In this document: piece by piece, positions 42,991 through 55,710 of the stretch
Position numbering within the stretch: position 1 is the stretch's first letter
How the letters are laid out: every line of letters starts with the position of its first letter
Assembly: GCA_943787175.1 (NCBI GenBank)
Contig: CALSLK010000002.1
Span: 62,001 to 126,000 of the forward strand
DNA from: an uncultured Alphaproteobacteria bacterium
GTDB taxonomy: Bacteria; Pseudomonadota; Alphaproteobacteria; SP197
DNA: 64,000 nucleotides
Direction of reading: 5' to 3'
Notes under the pieces: generated by a model
What the model saw: the letters and a program-made list of their open reading frames with translations, nothing else
The model's database searches: none
What the model was told of the DNA's origin: nothing
Translations under genes and position numbers: made by a program

Positions 42991-43057
42991 TGAGGTGGTC
43001 CCAGAAAATCGGACAGTTGATTAAGGTGTATTCCGCCATTTAATGGAGGAATACGAA

Positions 43058-43339
43058 ATGACGCCCCGACGACGGTTTACAGCAGATTTCAAGGCTCGAG
43101 TTGCGCTTGATGCGCTGCGTGGCGATAAGACGATCCAGGAGATAGCGACCAGGCACAAGGTGCACCCGAACCAGGTGAGCACATGGAAGCGCCAGGCGAT
43201 GGACGGTTTGGGTGCGGTGTTTTCGAATGGCGCCGACAAAGGTCGGCTGGAGCACGATGATGAGGTCCACGATCTCCATGCCAAGATCGGTCAGTTGACG
43301 GTGGAGCGGGATTTTTTGGCCAAAGGGCTCAAACGATGA
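43058..43339 (+). CDS. IS3-family transposase OrfA (left copy)
   Basis: About 93 residues from MTPRRRFTADFKARVALDAL (GGAGGAATACGAA upstream; a frame extends 15 bases earlier). HTH region IQEIATRHKVHPNQVSTWKR recognises the IS ends; the tail KIGQLTVERDFLAKGLKR is the leucine-zipper segment. The stop overlaps the orfB start (ATGA), so OrfB can be made by coupling rather than only by frameshifting. Confidence 0.92.
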   Translation: MTPRRRFTADFKARVALDALRGDKTIQEIATRHKVHPNQVSTWKRQAMDGLGAVFSNGADKGRLEHDDEVHDLHAKIGQLTVERDFLAKGLKR

Positions 43340-44268
43340 GCCGGGGGAATCGCAAGGCGATGATCAGACGCGATCACCCCGACCTGAGTTTGAGCCAACA
43401 GTGCCAAGTTCTGGCGATCAGCCGTTCGTCGTTCTATTACAGGTCGAAGGGCGAAAGCGTGGAGAACCTGGCGTTGATGCGTCGCATCGACGAGCTGTTT
43501 CTGAAGTATCCGTTTTACGGTTCCCGTCAGATGGTGCGCCAGTTGCGGCGCGAGGGCATTTGCGTGGGGCGTCACCGGGTCCGTCGTCTGATGCACCTCA
43601 TGGGGCTGGAGGCGATCTATCAAGCGCCAAAGACCAGTACACCCCATCCGGCGCACCGGATTTATCCCTATCTTCTCAAGGGAATGGTCATCGACCGGCC
43701 CAATCAAGTCTGGTGTGCCGACATCACGTATATCCCCGTTCAGCGCGGCTTTTTGTACCTGGTTGCGATCATGGACTGGGCCACGCGTCATGTACTCGCC
43801 TGGCGATTGTCGAACACCATGGATGTCTGGTTCTGCCTTGAGGCGTTAAACGAGGCGCTAGCCCGATATGGAAAACCGGAGATCTTCAACACCGACCAGG
43901 GCAGCCAGTTCACCAGCTTTGACTTCACCGGTTTGCTCAAGGCGGCGGAGGTTACGATCTCCATGGATGGCCGGGGCCGCTGCATGGACAACATCTTCAT
44001 CGAGCGGCTGTGGCGCTCTCTCAAATACGAGGCGGTCTATCTGCACGAGCTGACGGATGGGTTCAAGGCCGAACAGGTCATCGGCGATTGGGTCAATTTT
44101 TACAATACTGAGAGGCCACATTCGGTCCACGACGGCCAAACGCCCGCCGAGGCCTTCGGAAACGGGCGGCCCATGGATATGATGGACAAGGCTATCGCCT
44201 TGACCACATCTCCACAGGCTCAACAACAGCAGCAGCAAGATGTGATAAACAGGTTCTTGGCGGCATGA
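43336..44268 (+). CDS. IS3-family transposase OrfB with DDE domain (left copy)
   Basis: A protein of 310 residues. An HTH_21 segment (LMRRIDELFLKYPFYGSRQM) precedes the integrase core with the three acidic residues in WCADITYIPVQRG, NTDQGSQFTS and NIFIERLWRSLKYE. The tail has a poly-Gln run (QAQQQQQQ). It catalyses IS excision and strand transfer. The gene is intact, so this element is probably still active. Confidence 0.93.
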   Translation: MSRGNRKAMIRRDHPDLSLSQQCQVLAISRSSFYYRSKGESVENLALMRRIDELFLKYPFYGSRQMVRQLRREGICVGRHRVRRLMHLMGLEAIYQAPKTSTPHPAHRIYPYLLKGMVIDRPNQVWCADITYIPVQRGFLYLVAIMDWATRHVLAWRLSNTMDVWFCLEALNEALARYGKPEIFNTDQGSQFTSFDFTGLLKAAEVTISMDGRGRCMDNIFIERLWRSLKYEAVYLHELTDGFKAEQVIGDWVNFYNTERPHSVHDGQTPAEAFGNGRPMDMMDKAIALTTSPQAQQQQQQDVINRFLAA

Positions 44269-44399
44269 TCAGGAAACGGAATACACCTTAACTTCGCTGC
44301 CAAACTGTCCAACAATGTGGGACCACCTCAGTCCGCACACGCCTTCGGTGGTCCGGCTGCAGAACGACCAACTGAGATCAACCATTAGGAGTAAGACAC

Positions 44400-44579
44400 A
44401 TGCAAGCATTTACTGACCTTGTCGGCACCTCCGCTGTGCCCGCCACACGCCTTTGATATGGCTGAACTGACGAGCTGACACCGGCGCTGGACACCGCTAT
44501 GGCTGCCCATGACACCGCAGATCAGGCGAGTGACTCTCGCCAGCAACCTCATGTCGCACTTCGCCCGGCTGCTGAATGA
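44400..44579 (+). pseudogene. Precursor-like unit 1 (leader frameshifted)
   Basis: Begins MQAFTDLVGTSAVPA, but one extra C (GCCCGCCACACG) causes an early stop after 18 codons; a missing base 40 bases later restores the frame. The restored tail after the leader would be DSRQQPHVALRPAAE, or end in Pro-Gly-Cys if one more base is corrected (CCCGGCTGCTGA). It is a decayed or mis-sequenced copy of the family, first in the array. Confidence 0.6.
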
Positions 44580-44612
44580 CCAACTGAGATCAACCCCTGA
44601 GGAGTAATTCCC

Positions 44613-44840
44613 ATGCAAACCTTCACTGACCTTGTCGGCACTTCCGCTGTGCCCGCACACGCCTTTGATATCGCTGAGCTGATGGAGCTGACCCCGGCGC
44701 TGGACACCGCTATGGCTGCCCATGACACCGCAGATCAGGCGAGTGCTTCTCCTGTCTCTACTCTGCATTTCGCTGCCCTTCTGACTTTTCCTCGCCCGGG
44801 GCTGCTGAATGACCAACTGAGATCAACCCCTGAGGAGTAA
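44613..44840 (+). CDS. Precursor-like peptide, unit 2
   Basis: A peptide of 75 residues: conserved leader starting MQTFTDLVGTSAVPAHAF and continuing ELMELTPALDTAMAAHDTAD, then a tail of 31 residues beginning ASPVSTLHFAALLTFPRPG. The tail runs through the spacer and stops inside the next ribosome site. If the run of four G near 44800 were three, the tail would end FPRPGC and stop at TGCTGA like its neighbours. The ribosome site TGAGGAGTAATTCCC precedes the ATG. Confidence 0.7.
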   Translation: MQTFTDLVGTSAVPAHAFDIAELMELTPALDTAMAAHDTADQASASPVSTLHFAALLTFPRPGLLNDQLRSTPEE

Positions 44841-44845
44841 TTCCC

Positions 44846-45031
44846 ATGCAAACCTTCACTGACCTTGTCGGCACTTCCGCTGTGCCCGCACACGCCTTTG
44901 ATATTGCTGAGCTCACGGAGCTGACCCCAGCGCTGGACACCGCTATGGCTGCCCATGACACCGCAGATCAGGCGAGTGAGGCTGCACATACTGGTTCGTA
45001 TTGTCACAGCATACGGCTTCGGTGCTGCTGA
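44846..45031 (+). CDS. Precursor-like peptide, unit 3
   Basis: A peptide of 61 residues. The leader of 44 residues is nearly identical in DNA to unit 2 (ELTELTPALDTAMAAHDTAD in its second half). The tail is EAAHTGSYCHSIRLRCC with three Cys, one Thr and two Ser, suitable for thioether, disulfide or azole formation. Stop TGA directly follows TGCTGC. It starts 5 bases after the unit 2 stop, so the two are coupled. No processing enzyme is encoded nearby; the modification type is unknown. Confidence 0.75.
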   Translation: MQTFTDLVGTSAVPAHAFDIAELTELTPALDTAMAAHDTADQASEAAHTGSYCHSIRLRCC

Positions 45032-45066
45032 CGACCAACTGAGATCAACCATTAGGAGTAATTCCC

Positions 45067-45252
45067 ATGCAAACCTTCACTGACCTTGTCGGCACTTCCG
45101 CTGTGCCCGCACACGCCTTTGATATTGATGAGCTCACGGAGCTGACCCCAGCGCTGGCCACCGCTATGGCTACTCATGGAACATCGGTAGAGGCGAGTGA
45201 AGCTAAATATTCTCCTGCATATACTGTTGGCTGTGTCTGCGTGAAGGAGTAA
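45067..45252 (+). CDS. Precursor-like peptide, unit 4
   Basis: A peptide of 61 residues. The leader differs slightly from units 2 and 3 (DIDELTELTPALATAMATHG, then TSVEAS). The tail is EAKYSPAYTVGCVCVKE with two Cys. Downstream, GAAGGAGTAATTC looks like the ribosome site of another unit whose leader has been deleted, so the last codons (VKE) are probably foreign to the original core. Confidence 0.7.
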   Translation: MQTFTDLVGTSAVPAHAFDIDELTELTPALATAMATHGTSVEASEAKYSPAYTVGCVCVKE

Positions 45253-45314
45253 TTCATCGCCTTTCCGCTGTGCGGCACTTGGCTTTCGTGTCTGTTGCGG
45301 CTGCTGAGCGACCA
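45253..45314 (+). pseudogene. Orphan core remnant fused behind unit 4
   Basis: After the ribosome-site-like GGAGTAATTC there is no leader. In the +1 frame the sequence reads SSPFRCAALGFRVCCGC followed by TGA and then the usual spacer. This is the pattern of a core end that lost its leader by a deletion between two units. Confidence 0.45.
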
Positions 45315-45342
45315 CTGAGATCAACCATTAGGAGTAATTCCC

Positions 45343-45528
45343 ATGCAAGCTTTTACTGACCTTGTCGGCACGTTCGCTGTGCCCGCACACGCCTTTGATA
45401 TCGCTGAGCTGATGGAGCTGACCCCAGCCCTGGCCACCGCTATGGCTACTCATGGAACATCGGTAGAGGCGAGTGAAGGTCCGGGTAGTCTACTACTCAC
45501 TGGCGGCTGGAATTCGCCTTGCTGCTGA
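45343..45528 (+). CDS. Precursor-like peptide, unit 5
   Basis: A peptide of 61 residues. The leader starts MQAFTDLVGTFAVPAHAF and ends in TSVEAS like unit 4. The tail is EGPGSLLLTGGWNSPCC, ending in Cys-Cys, stop TGA after TGCTGC. TTAGGAGTAATTCCC is placed 0-1 bases from the ATG spacing seen in the other units. The tail has no similarity to the tails of units 1-4. Confidence 0.75.
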   Translation: MQAFTDLVGTFAVPAHAFDIAELMELTPALATAMATHGTSVEASEGPGSLLLTGGWNSPCC

Positions 45529-45565
45529 AACGACCAACTGAGATTAACCATTAGGAGTGATTCCC

Positions 45566-45589
45566 ATGCAAGCATTTACTGACCTTTGA
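45566..45589 (+). pseudogene. Precursor-like unit 6, cut by an IS after seven codons
   Basis: TTAGGAGTGATTCCC and the start MQAFTDL are followed directly by the IS end at 45587, whose first bases supply a stop (TGA). The rest of the unit and anything that once lay downstream of the array is missing. Confidence 0.7.
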
Positions 45590-45604
45590 ATAGCCCCTAG
45601 TTTT

Positions 45605-46481
45605 CTAGACGCCTTCGGTTATCGTTTTCTGCTGCCGTTCGAACTCAACGGGCGACAGCATCCCGTTCTTCGTATGCTTTCGCTTGGGGATTGTAGAACA
45701 TCTCGATGTAGTCGAACACATCCTGCCTGGCATCGGCTCGGGTTTTATAGGTCCTGCGCCTTATCCGTTCACGTTTGAGCAGATTGAAGAAGCTCTCCGC
45801 GACAGCGTTGTCATGACAGTTGCCGCGCCGGCTCATCGAATGCTCCAGATTGTGCGCCCTGAGGAATGACGCCCAGTCCCGGCTGGTGAACTGGGAACCC
45901 TGGTCCGAGTGGATCAGCACCCTGTTCTTCGGCTTTCTGCGCCACACCGCCATCAACAGCGCCTGCAGGACAACGTCCGTCGTCTGGCGGCTCTGGATGG
46001 ACCAGCCAACGACACGACGGGAGTAGAGGTCGATCACGACAGCCAGATAGGCAAAGCCTTCAAGGGTCCTGATGTAGGTGATGTCCGTCACCCAGACCTT
46101 GTCCGGGTCCTCCACGTCGAACTGCCGGTCCAGCGTGTTATCGACGACCACGGACGGCTTGCCGCCATAAACGCCAGGCCGGCGCCTGTAGCCGATCTGG
46201 GCCTTGATGTCCGCCTGCCTCGCAAGGCGGGCGACACGGTTCGGGCAGCACGTCTCACCCTGATCCAGCAGGTCATCATGTAGCTTGCGATATCCATACA
46301 CCTTGCCGCTCTCCTTCCAGGCCTTCCGGATCAGCTCGGTCTGGCGCGCGTCTTCCCGGGCCCGCTTGCTCAGCGGGTTCCTGAGCCAGGCGTAGAAGCC
46401 GCTGGGGTGGATGCGCAGACAGCGACACATCGCACGCACCGGAAACACCGGGCGATGCTCGGCAACGAACGCGTATCTCAC
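45605..46481 (-). pseudogene. IS3-family transposase OrfB, C-terminus frameshifted
   Basis: A DDE transposase starting (GTG 46481) RYAFVAEHRPVFPVRAMC, with HTH_21 region YGYRKLHDDLLDQGETCC and catalytic residues in VWVTDITYIRTLEG, IHSDQGSQFTS and DNAVAESFFNLLKRE. After MFYNP a run of four C (45686-45689 on the other strand as G) shifts the frame and it stops early at 45645; with three it continues KRKHTKNGMLSPVEFE and ends at 45605. The element is therefore inactive or the base is an error. Confidence 0.85.
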
Positions 46482-46747
46482 TTTGCATCCCTGGCGAAAT
46501 ACGCGGTGGCTTTTTTTAGGATGTCGCGTTCCTCGGTCACCCTCGTCAGCTCGCGCTTCAACCGACGGATCTCGGCATCCCTGTCGTCACCGCCGGACGG
46601 CGCCGAGAACTTCTTCTTCCACGCGTAGAGCGAATGCGGGCTTACGCCCAGGCGCTGCGAAACCTCCGAAACCGGATAACCCCGCTCGGTGATTTGCGCT
46701 ACCGCGTCGCGTTTGAAATCGTCGCTGAAATTACTTTTGCTCATCAT
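46478..46747 (-). CDS. IS3-family transposase OrfA (second element)
   Basis: A protein of 89 residues: MSKSNFSDDFKRDAVAQITE, HTH region VSEVSQRLGVSPHSLYAWKK and zipper AEIRRLKRELTRVTEERDIL. CTAAAAAAAGCC near 46508 is a run suited to programmed -1 frameshifting into orfB. The gene starts behind GGAGGCC. It is complete. Confidence 0.92.
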   Translation of the reverse strand: MMSKSNFSDDFKRDAVAQITERGYPVSEVSQRLGVSPHSLYAWKKKFSAPSGGDDRDAEIRRLKRELTRVTEERDILKKATAYFARDAK

Positions 46748-46805
46748 GGCCTCCTTGCCTCAAATTTAGGGAAGAAGGTGTCTACGAATCTCGGGGCTAT
46801 TCAGT

Positions 46806-49904: not shown

Positions 49905-49987
49905 TAGCAGACTGCCTGCCCATTGCCGCTAAGCCGCAGCTGTGACTAAGCTGCTTCCAGCTATCTGGAGGCGGCATCATGAGACGG
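49905..49987 (+). repeat. Shared leader repeat, copy 1 (before pentapeptide gene 1)
   Basis: 83 bases nearly identical to 51560-51640 and 53830-53901: the tail of a small gene (AGCAGACTGCCTG to CAGCTGTGA), GCAGCT seven bases AGCTGC as a hairpin, TCCAGCTATCTGGA as a second hairpin, then GGAGGCGGCATC and ATGAGACG. The start codon and first three codons are part of the repeat, so a transferable expression signal is likely. Confidence 0.75.
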
Positions 49988-50664
49988 TTGTTTGCGTTTG
50001 CCACAGTCTTGCTTGCTGGCAGCCCCGGCATGGGCTGACTGCGACGATGGTGACTGTGTTCAGTGTGACCTCAGCAGGCGCCGACCTCAGCGGTGCCAAC
50101 CTCGAGGGTGCCGTCCTCGAGCGGTGCCTTCCTCACCGCTGCCCACCTCAGCTGTGCGCAACCCTCAGAGATGCCAACCTCAGCGGTGCCAACCTCATGG
50201 GTGCCAACCTCAGGCATGCCGACCTCAGGCGTGCCGACCTCAGCGATGCCAACCTCAGCGGTGCCAACCTCAGGGGTGCCAGTCTCAGCGGTGTCAACCT
50301 CAGCGGTGTCAACCTCATGGGTGCCAACCTCATGGGTGCCTACCTCAGTGGTGCCTACCTCAGTGGTGCCTACCTCAGTGGTGCCCTCCTCTTCGGTGCC
50401 TACCTCAGCGATGCCGACCTCAGTGGTGCCAACCTCAGCGGTGCCAACCTCAGCGGTGCCGACCTCAGCGATGCCGACCTCAGCGGTGCCGACCTCAGCG
50501 GTGCCCACCTCGGCAGTACCAGCCTCAGCGGTGCTGACGTCAGCGATGCCACCCTCGACGGTCTCAACATCAAGGGTGCCGATCTCAGTGGTGCTTTGAT
50601 GCAGGGCGTCGTGTTCTGCAATACCGTGATGCCGGACGACTCAGTCCTCTACTCAGGCTGCTGA
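49980..50664 (+). pseudogene. Pentapeptide-repeat protein 1, frame broken near the signal peptide
   Basis: The start ATGAGACGG (49980) gives MRRLFAFATVLLA as in gene 2, but the frame breaks near 50022. Another frame continues APAWADCDDGDCVQCDLS, then the pentapeptide frame follows: over 20 repeats of Ala-(Asp/Asn)-Leu-Ser-Gly ([17 protein letters not shown]) to about 50600, ending VLYSGC. Two more shifts (about 50120 and 50150) cancel each other. Such right-handed beta-helices mimic DNA or bind surfaces; with a signal peptide this one would be exported. Confidence 0.7.
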
Positions 50665-53829: not shown

Positions 53830-53901
53830 CCTGCCCATTGCCGCTAAGCCAGAGCTGTGACTAAGCTGCGTCCAGCTATCTGGAGGCGGCATCATGAGAC
53901 G
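53830..53901 (+). repeat. Shared leader repeat, copy 3 (before pentapeptide gene 2)
   Basis: 72 bases matching 49905-49987, with small changes (AGAGCTGTGAC and TGCGTCCAGC) that weaken the first hairpin. The ribosome site GGAGGCGGCATC and ATGAGACG are retained. The upstream small-gene tail is shorter here. Confidence 0.75.
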
Positions 53902-54268
53902 TCAGTTTCTTGCGTTTGCCACAGTCCTGTTGCTAACAGCCCCGGCATGGGGTGGCCTCCTCAGCGGTGCCGACCTCAGCGATGCCGACCTCAGCGATGC
54001 CGACCTCAGCGGCGCGGACCTCAGCGGCGCGGACCTCAGCGGTGCCAACCTCAGATTTACCGACCTCAGAGGTGCCAACCTCACCGGTGTCAACCTCAGC
54101 GGTGCCGACCTCACCGGTACAGCGCTTAGCGATGCCGACCTCAGCGGCGCGGACCTCAGCGGTGCCAACCTCAGTGGTGCCCTCCTCAGCGATGCCTTCC
54201 TCTTTGGTGTCGACCTCAGCGATGCCAACCTCAGGCGTGTCCGTCGTCAGAACATTTGGGACGCGTGA
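53894..54268 (+). CDS. Pentapeptide-repeat protein 2, secreted
   Basis: A protein of 124 residues. Signal peptide [20 protein letters not shown], then about 18 pentapeptides of the Ala-Asp-Leu-Ser-Gly type ([34 protein letters not shown]), ending [15 protein letters not shown]. It folds as a right-handed quadrilateral beta-helix. It is an intact paralogue of the broken gene at 49980, with the same leader repeat. It ends 102 bases before the right IS. Export plus DNA-mimic fold is an unusual combination; the function is unknown. Confidence 0.75.
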
Positions 54269-54437
54269 GCTCGTTTTCTAATTGAGTATCTGGCTCATCT
54301 TGATTTGATGTTAAGCCGCTTGTTGTTGATGGTTCAAGCGGCGGGTTTGGATGGTGAGTTTTTTGATCTTTGAGGTGGTCCCAGAAAATCGGACAGTTGA
54401 TTAAGGTGTATTCCGCCATTTAATGGAGGAATACGAA

Positions 54438-54719
54438 ATGACGCCCCGACGACGGTTTACAGCAGATTTCAAGGCTCGAGTTGCGCTTGATGCGCTGCGT
54501 GGCGATAAGACGATCCAGGAGATAGCGACCAGGCACAAGGTGCACCCGAACCAGGTGAGCACATGGAAGCGCCAGGCGATGGACGGTTTGGGTGCGGTGT
54601 TTTCGAATGGCGCCGACAAAGGTCGGCTGGAGCACGATGATGAGGTCCACGATCTCCATGCCAAGATCGGTCAGTTGACGGTGGAGCGGGATTTTTTGGC
54701 CAAAGGGCTCAAACGATGA
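54438..54719 (+). CDS. IS3-family transposase OrfA (right copy)
   Basis: Same 93-residue protein as in the left copy, starting MTPRRRFTADFKARVALDAL after GGAGGAATACGAA. HTH and leucine-zipper segments are present. The stop overlaps orfB by ATGA. Confidence 0.92.
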   Translation: MTPRRRFTADFKARVALDALRGDKTIQEIATRHKVHPNQVSTWKRQAMDGLGAVFSNGADKGRLEHDDEVHDLHAKIGQLTVERDFLAKGLKR

Positions 54720-55648
54720 GCCGGGGGAATCGCAAGGCGATGATCAGACGCGATCACCCCGACCTGAGTTTGAGCCAACAGTGCCAAGTTCTGGCGATCA
54801 GCCGTTCGTCGTTCTATTACAGGTCGAAGGGCGAAAGCGTGGAGAACCTGGCGTTGATGCGTCGCATCGACGAGCTGTTTCTGAAGTATCCGTTTTACGG
54901 TTCCCGTCAGATGGTGCGCCAGTTGCGGCGCGAGGGCATTTGCGTGGGGCGTCACCGGGTCCGTCGTCTGATGCACCTCATGGGGCTGGAGGCGATCTAT
55001 CAAGCGCCAAAGACCAGTACACCCCATCCGGCGCACCGGATTTATCCCTATCTTCTCAAGGGAATGGTCATCGACCGGCCCAATCAAGTCTGGTGTGCCG
55101 ACATCACGTATATCCCCGTTCAGCGCGGCTTTTTGTACCTGGTTGCGATCATGGACTGGGCCACGCGTCATGTACTCGCCTGGCGATTGTCGAACACCAT
55201 GGATGTCTGGTTCTGCCTTGAGGCGTTAAACGAGGCGCTAGCCCGATATGGAAAACCGGAGATCTTCAACACCGACCAGGGCAGCCAGTTCACCAGCTTT
55301 GACTTCACCGGTTTGCTCAAGGCGGCGGAGGTTACGATCTCCATGGATGGCCGGGGCCGCTGCATGGACAACATCTTCATCGAGCGGCTGTGGCGCTCTC
55401 TCAAATACGAGGCGGTCTATCTGCACGAGCTGACGGATGGGTTCAAGGCCGAACAGGTCATCGGCGATTGGGTCAATTTTTACAATACTGAGAGGCCACA
55501 TTCGGTCCACGACGGCCAAACGCCCGCCGAGGCCTTCGGAAACGGGCGGCCCATGGATATGATGGACAAGGCTATCGCCTTGACCACATCTCCACAGGCT
55601 CAACAACAGCAGCAGCAAGATGTGATAAACAGGTTCTTGGCGGCATGA
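54716..55648 (+). CDS. IS3-family transposase OrfB (right copy)
   Basis: The same 310-residue DDE transposase as in the left copy, with intact WCADITYIP, NTDQGSQFTS and IERLWRSLKYE. Because both copies are complete, either could drive movement of the whole island. Confidence 0.93.
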   Translation: MSRGNRKAMIRRDHPDLSLSQQCQVLAISRSSFYYRSKGESVENLALMRRIDELFLKYPFYGSRQMVRQLRREGICVGRHRVRRLMHLMGLEAIYQAPKTSTPHPAHRIYPYLLKGMVIDRPNQVWCADITYIPVQRGFLYLVAIMDWATRHVLAWRLSNTMDVWFCLEALNEALARYGKPEIFNTDQGSQFTSFDFTGLLKAAEVTISMDGRGRCMDNIFIERLWRSLKYEAVYLHELTDGFKAEQVIGDWVNFYNTERPHSVHDGQTPAEAFGNGRPMDMMDKAIALTTSPQAQQQQQQDVINRFLAA

Positions 55649-55710
55649 TCAGGAAACGGAATACACCTTAACTTCGCTGCCAAACTGTCCAACAATGTGG
55701 GACCACCTCA

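Follow-up and report, generated by a model that had tools for sequence, protein, structure and literature searches.

Most descriptions of prochlorosin-type lanthipeptide systems, in which a single enzyme makes dozens of ring peptides, come from picocyanobacteria, and the role of these systems is unknown (PMC10783134). In these systems the enzyme ProcM has 29 ProcA precursors and SyncM has 79 SyncA precursors, whose genes are scattered; the same account describes the prochlorosin leader as Nif11-type, about 60 residues long and ending in GG, and describes a CCG zinc motif in the LanM enzyme (PMC10783134). In class II clusters at large, precursors are mostly single (37%) or paired (39%) (PMC7268733). 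According to a review, clusters homologous to that of ProcM have been estimated in alpha- and gammaproteobacteria (PMC12328550), so that the host group studied here may not itself be new.

We analysed a window of 64,000 nucleotides from the genome of an uncultured alphaproteobacterium, which carries a tandem array of small genes. The array is very probably a piece of a prochlorosin-like class II lanthipeptide system, in which one enzyme serves many substrates, with a new leader family. This reading is based on the anatomy of the genes, the presence of a LanM, the co-occurrence of leader and LanM, the multi-core tail that adjoins LanM in each of two sister species, and selection on the leaders and on one core. 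Like the prochlorosins and synechococsins of marine picocyanobacteria (ProcM, SyncM), the system has one CCG-type LanM, many scattered precursors, a shared leader and hypervariable cores. However, the leader here has ~44 residues, no Pfam match and an (E/Q)AS end, two of three genomes have no C39 match, some precursors look multi-core, and the host group differs. Because the leader is neither Nif11-type nor GG-ended, we do not file the system as a prochlorosin member; the likeness lies in the way of working, placement in the ProcM clade aside. With ordinary class II clusters it shares a LanM with DUF4135 and LANC_like domains and cores with Ser/Thr and Cys, whereas its leader copies number 58, and the stretch of the LanM contig in the source genome (L021) yielded none. 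Among the literature matches listed, judged by titles and the beginnings of abstracts, we found no account of this leader or of the genus with lanthipeptides, and no description of multi-core precursors of this kind among those matches. The alphaproteobacterial leader family offers a comparison set for asking what such peptide libraries do, with species-specific repertoires, one cross-species unit, one core under selection and apparently multi-core genes, as well as a new leader-LanM pair with which peptide libraries could be made.

The array in the window

The array (44331-45586) sits between two insertion sequences and contains four open units, one frame-broken copy and two remnants, one at each end. 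In each unit, AGGAG lies shortly 5′ of the ATG and is followed by a ~44-codon leader and a tail unlike the other tails; the tails have 17-31 residues and are mutually unrelated. The features are as follows.

42991..44330, + strand: left insertion sequence, a flank outside the precursor system; frames 43043-43339 and 43336-44268; ends TGAGGTGGTCCC/GGGACCACCTCA
44331..44369, + strand: remnant of a further unit next to the left insertion sequence, with part of a leader joined to the GGCTGC..GACC edge (read from the sequence)
44400..44456, + strand: unit 1, leader copy disrupted by a one-base frameshift, reading MQAFTDLVGTSAVPA before the frame is lost; the DNA profile of leaders matches at 44400-44531
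44613..44840, + strand: unit 2, open reading frame of 75 aa; tail without Cys, reading beyond the usual stop
44846..45031, + strand: unit 3, open reading frame of 61 aa, core EAAHTGSYCHSIRLRCC
45067..45252, + strand: unit 4, open reading frame of 61 aa, core EAKYSPAYTVGCVCVKE
45343..45528, + strand: unit 5, open reading frame of 61 aa, core EGPGSLLLTGGWNSPCC
45566..45586, + strand: unit 6, only the first codons (MQAFTDL), truncated by the right insertion sequence
45587..46803, − strand: right insertion sequence, a flank; frames 46478-46747 and 45645-46481; ends TGAATAGCCCC/GGGGCTATTCA

Unit 1 (start 44400) runs in frame for 15 residues before the shift and meets a stop at 44456. Repeat finders recovered the array independently (5 copies of 179 nt; TRF score 1027), indicating that it is not due to chance. 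A scan of the array for promoters and terminators found 0 and 0, against 0.7 and 1.0 expected by chance. The units and the repeat finders together confirm the original prediction of repeated small genes with a conserved leader and variable tails; its count of about seven genes holds if the remnants are included, while only four are open.

The boundary between leader and core was examined in 25 units of the source genome. Conservation is 1.5-1.7 bits per base over the final three codons of the leader, is still 1.5 and 1.2 bits in core codons 1 and 2 (usually Glu-Ala), and drops to 0.1-0.6 bits in codons 3-8, so the sharp fall comes two codons beyond the Ala-Ser. The predicted boundary at Ala-Ser is therefore real but slightly displaced, and conservation in the last third of the leader is uneven (0.8-1.8 bits). 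Moreover, the tail ends in GGCTGC-TGA in 8 of the 25 units and in TGCTGC-TGA in 3 more, which means that the variable part is often flanked by two conserved edges.

Leader genes and their cores

The window array accounts for only a small fraction of the leader genes. One unit, used as query against the source genome assembly (G000; 3.89 Mb in 38 contigs, completeness 91.78%), had 67 matches with E values up to 10. A DNA profile of the leaders, applied to selected stretches of the genome, identified 58 leader copies, which are spread over nine contigs: C10 has 36, C24 has 6, and there are 5 in the window (C2), 4 on C22, 3 on C27 and 1 each on C8, C14, C6 and C1. One of these copies is a 65-base fragment. 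An openness test, which asked for an open leader, a recognised boundary and a tail, was passed by 31 of the 58; the filter took 62 ATG-anchored frames from four genomes, kept 42, and discarded frames without a recognised boundary and frames fitting two frameshift patterns. Three units on one stretch (L012 9012, 11631 and 13267) carry one common frame break (QATHGHR-stop), reflecting either duplication after breaking or a systematic sequencing error.

The leader follows the pattern F-x-D/E-LVG ... ELTxLTPAL ... (E/Q)AS over ~44 residues and ends in AS or variants of it, with no double glycine. Three precursors were compared with known leader families, none of which fitted: Pfam gave no match, and NCBIfam gave nothing above cut-off, with one match far below it (11.3 of 150 bits). 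The original prediction did not recognise the leader as one of a known class; the system is most likely a class II lanthipeptide system.

The leaders are under purifying selection. We found a dN/dS of 0.30 over 819 pairs of 41 leaders, the pairs not being independent, with 0.31 within the source genome, 0.32 for the six pairs that the window provides and 0.27 for leaders of other species. The original prediction had named a ratio of about 1 as grounds for refuting it; the ratio is about 0.3, and a modifying enzyme is present in the genome.

The 38 distinct cores range from 7 to 54 residues, mostly 11-31, which disfavours a diversity-generating retroelement with its fixed-length, substitution-only variation. 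For core composition, the two cores longer than 32 residues were set aside, and the other 36 distinct cores, which come from four genomes, were compared with 2000 shuffles of codon DNA. Cys is present in 31 of the 36 cores (18.5 expected; maximum 30), which have Ser/Thr as well, and absent from the other 5. In total the cores have 54 Cys (25.7 expected; maximum 45), and 25 cores have Cys among the last four residues (5.6 expected; maximum 13). Ser and Thr together were not clearly enriched in this set (109 against 97.3 expected; maximum 127). Lys is nearly absent from the cores (0.5%), which argues weakly against cationic membrane-active peptides.

Only two cores were common to different genomes in a screen of open units. 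One of them, EASGTFTQHVNPTTHC, is identical over 16 residues between contig C10 of the source genome and contig C212 of a sister genome (G008), at loci with flanking genes in common. This core has 8 synonymous and 0 non-synonymous changes, whereas the two leaders differ at 16 of 40 residues (Fisher p 0.014, in a test run after the match had been seen). At another locus pair with flanking genes in common (L016 7664 in the source genome, L074 8279 in G008), the cores differ. The second common core belongs to a 201-nt unit that is identical throughout in C10 of the source genome and C139 of G008.

Among 15 leader copies whose frames were examined, five read as an in-frame leader followed by at least 2 Cys-containing cores with AS- or AG-ended spacers between them, although each could alternatively be a single long core:

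L016 7165 (source genome): apparent multi-core frame, three cores
L087 197 (G008): apparent multi-core frame, two cores
L084 5234 (G004): apparent multi-core frame, two cores
L085 410 and L085 1122 (G004): apparent multi-core frames, two cores each

In the L085 frames the leader as read starts at QQSF or SF, and the spacer LEPDL(L/T)HQAS is repeated.

The LanM enzyme and its probable link to the leader

The source genome has one LANC_like place, on contig C3 rather than on the window contig, and it corresponds to a LanM in pieces. The pieces match TIGR03897, PF13575 (DUF4135) and PF05147 (LANC_like), each below the TIGR03897 cut-off. An intact LanM of 1054 aa is present in G008 and in another family genome, G004; that of G008 scores 630.2 bits against the TIGR03897 cut-off of 304 and has both the dehydratase (PF13575) and the cyclase (PF05147) domains. 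When aligned with LicM2, the G008 enzyme shows the zinc-site motifs WCHG at 925 and CCG at 971, and we presume that the other cyclase residues, as at WCHG 925, act as zinc ligands. At the CCG position LicM2 has CHG, and so has CylM, within a very weak aligned stretch. Of 10 other LanM-match loci examined in Alphaproteobacteria (the two longest frames of each), 8 have CCG as well, so it is not distinctive. Other LanM-match frames that were compared show about 25-36% identity where they align.

Among 16 genomes of the family, 3 have LanM (G000, G004 and G008) and 5 have the leader, with 62 matches in G000, 13 in G008, 7 in G004, 3 in G002 and 1 in G003. LanM had no match in G002 or G003, although both have leader copies. 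The leader therefore occurs in 3/3 genomes with LanM and in 2/13 without it (Fisher's exact p 0.018, calculated by hand and ignoring relatedness). In a class-wide sample of 385 genomes, scoring no more than 16 candidates from each genome found the leader in 2, which both belong to this genus; LanM was found in 20, including the source genome, 7 of them above the curated cut-off. Named records hold 8 related loci, from three MAG assemblies (uncultured Alphaproteobacteria bacterium/Rhodospirillaceae bacterium).

The surroundings of LanM were also compared in the two sister species. Contig C298 of G008, which carries LanM, ends about 290 nt upstream of that gene with a frame on its strand that reads ...DAS-DALPTSGSACHTNWCVEGEALEAS-GTGPTVTFPCISDEAQEAS-HASGTWVSSCVCIH-stop. 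Contig C137 of G008 starts inside a leader gene, MQASFNDLVG...MAHEAS-EAIPTLG, which runs off the contig edge. In G004 the flanks of both contigs lie on one contig in matching order, and a tail ending in HASGTWVSSCVCIH stands about 280 nt upstream of LanM, without a leader. The simplest reading would be that G008 has a single leader-plus-many-cores gene beside LanM, bridging C137 and C298, the leader and the multi-core tail being on separate contigs with no read joining them. No leader copies were found on the LanM contig stretch of the source genome (L021), where the contig ends inside LanM.

The LanM genes of G004 (L072 4086-7250) and G008 (L071 11511-14675) have a dS of 0.11, against 0.97 for the adjoining RND genes, and on the ABC side near LanM the two genomes share 92% DNA identity. 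It looks as if LanM with its ABC side had been exchanged recently between the two species.

The broken LanM of the source genome raises the possibility that the system is dead there, with LanM and many precursors being pseudogenes and the array a decaying relic split by insertion sequences. Compared with the G008 gene, the source LanM has five single-base indels in the 2.76 kb present (the contig ends before the gene start), while the 4.2 kb of adjoining RND/MFP genes has none. Further, 27 of the 58 leader copies fail the openness test, some being short fragments, and three units have the common QATHGHR-stop break. On the other hand, four of the five LanM indels extend a C or G run by one, the dN/dS of LanM between the source genome and G008 is 0.056 (0.059 for the neighbouring RND gene), and the source gene, followed in the frame of G008, has one stop, taken as its own end. 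Other genes are broken too: two genes along from LanM, a gene carries two single-base insertions, and 13 of 46 queried frames are split between frames (10 of 43 once the two LanM queries and one array antisense frame are set aside), in a count where one gene was counted twice and some frames may be spurious. Given that other conserved genes are also frame-broken, we do not take the LanM indels as proof of decay, and we consider a dead system rather unlikely. More generally, frame breaks in conserved genes were seen on several stretches of the source assembly (L021, L020, L011, L018 and others), where gene calls need care, and its open frames are shorter than those of G009, base composition not being controlled.

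It is improbable that the tails are modified by another RiPP enzyme (for example YcaO, radical SAM or MNIO) while LanM serves other substrates. The leader lacks a GG end and two of three genomes lack a C39 partner, which would suit such an enzyme, but leader and LanM co-occur in the family, both G008 and G004 have a like-built multi-core tail a short way upstream of LanM, and a leader gene stands at the neighbouring G008 contig edge. With regard to the class II lanthipeptide reading as a whole, the LanM indels, the 27 failing copies, the LanM-less genomes G002 and G003, the missing C39 and GG, the lack of a Pfam match, the Cys-less cores, the Ser and Thr content, the split of leader and tail between two G008 contigs, the leaderless tail of G004 and the differing cores at the L016/L074 locus pair were counted against it. 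The original prediction of RiPP precursors with tailoring in trans is supported by the single LanM on another contig, its co-occurrence with the leader in the family, and the multi-core tail beside it.

Proposed processing, export and mobility

We propose that the shared leader would be recognised and bound by the one LanM, whose gene lies at another place in the genome; the enzyme would then dehydrate Ser/Thr of the core and join Cys to the dehydrated residues as (methyl)lanthionine rings. A protease would then cut the leader off after (E/Q)AS, and the ring peptide would be exported. The ring chemistry, cleavage at AS, the exporter and the biological role are all inferred. Some genes appear to carry a series of cores after a single leader, with an AS-ended spacer before each core. 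Extending this, and with slightly less than even confidence, we suggest that each such core would follow its own cleavage spacer, the LanM-adjacent gene would be a multi-core gene of this kind with the scattered single-core units as its relatives, release would be by an AS-specific protease, and export would use the ABC or RND system rather than C39.

A double-glycine leader end with a C39 peptidase-transporter is common, although not universal, in class II lanthipeptides. A C39 transporter was rejected as the partner here: the C39 peptidase (PF03412) had no match in G000 or G008, and its matches in 5 of 10 genus genomes fall in G004 and in four genomes without LanM. Candidate exporters would be an ABC transporter or an RND pump beside LanM. 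A TIGR01194 cyclic-peptide ABC transporter (305.9 bits; cut-off 286.2) is encoded on the LanM contig of G004, with a 99% identical copy on C137 of G008; the LanM contig of the source genome stops short of that place, and no close copy was found in this genome. Beside LanM stands an AcrB-type RND pump together with its adaptor, and a TolC-family protein is encoded nearby. Among 10 genus genomes the pump occurs in 3 (E up to 1e-100), precisely those that have LanM, but since the two are physically linked this co-occurrence is not independent evidence.

Precursor units would multiply by tandem duplication, at many loci and sometimes crossing species, the leader and flanks being kept while the cores diverge. 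The original prediction had the array moved as a cassette by a transposon, and this was not supported. The two flanking insertion sequences differ in their ends and sequence, for which reason a composite transposon was rejected, and four precursor loci (C1, C10, C14 and C27) have flanking genes in common with leader-bearing G008 loci, so that they look old and fixed. Single precursor units, by contrast, appear to move between species: the identical 201-nt unit, set against a dS of 0.84 for LanM and 1.1 for the RND gene between the source genome and G008, suggests a recent transfer of a single unit. That the repeats are merely selfish DNA linked to insertion sequences, with no peptide product, is very improbable, for although insertion sequences flank the window array and the right one also stands among C10 units, purifying selection acts on the leaders and on one core, the cores are enriched in Cys, loci with flanking genes in common occur in two species, and the surroundings of LanM suggest that precursor and enzyme are linked.

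The left insertion sequence, which we take to be IS3-type, has 100% identical copies at 54371-55710 of the window and at L015 5493-6834, indicating that it probably moved recently in the source genome. The right one has a 99.8% identical copy amid precursor units on C10 (L012 9490-10706). Elsewhere in the window, frames 49942-50664 and 53894-54268 overlap 15-base tandem repeats; the former encodes five-residue repeats of the A(D/N)LSG kind, presumably pentapeptide-repeat-like.
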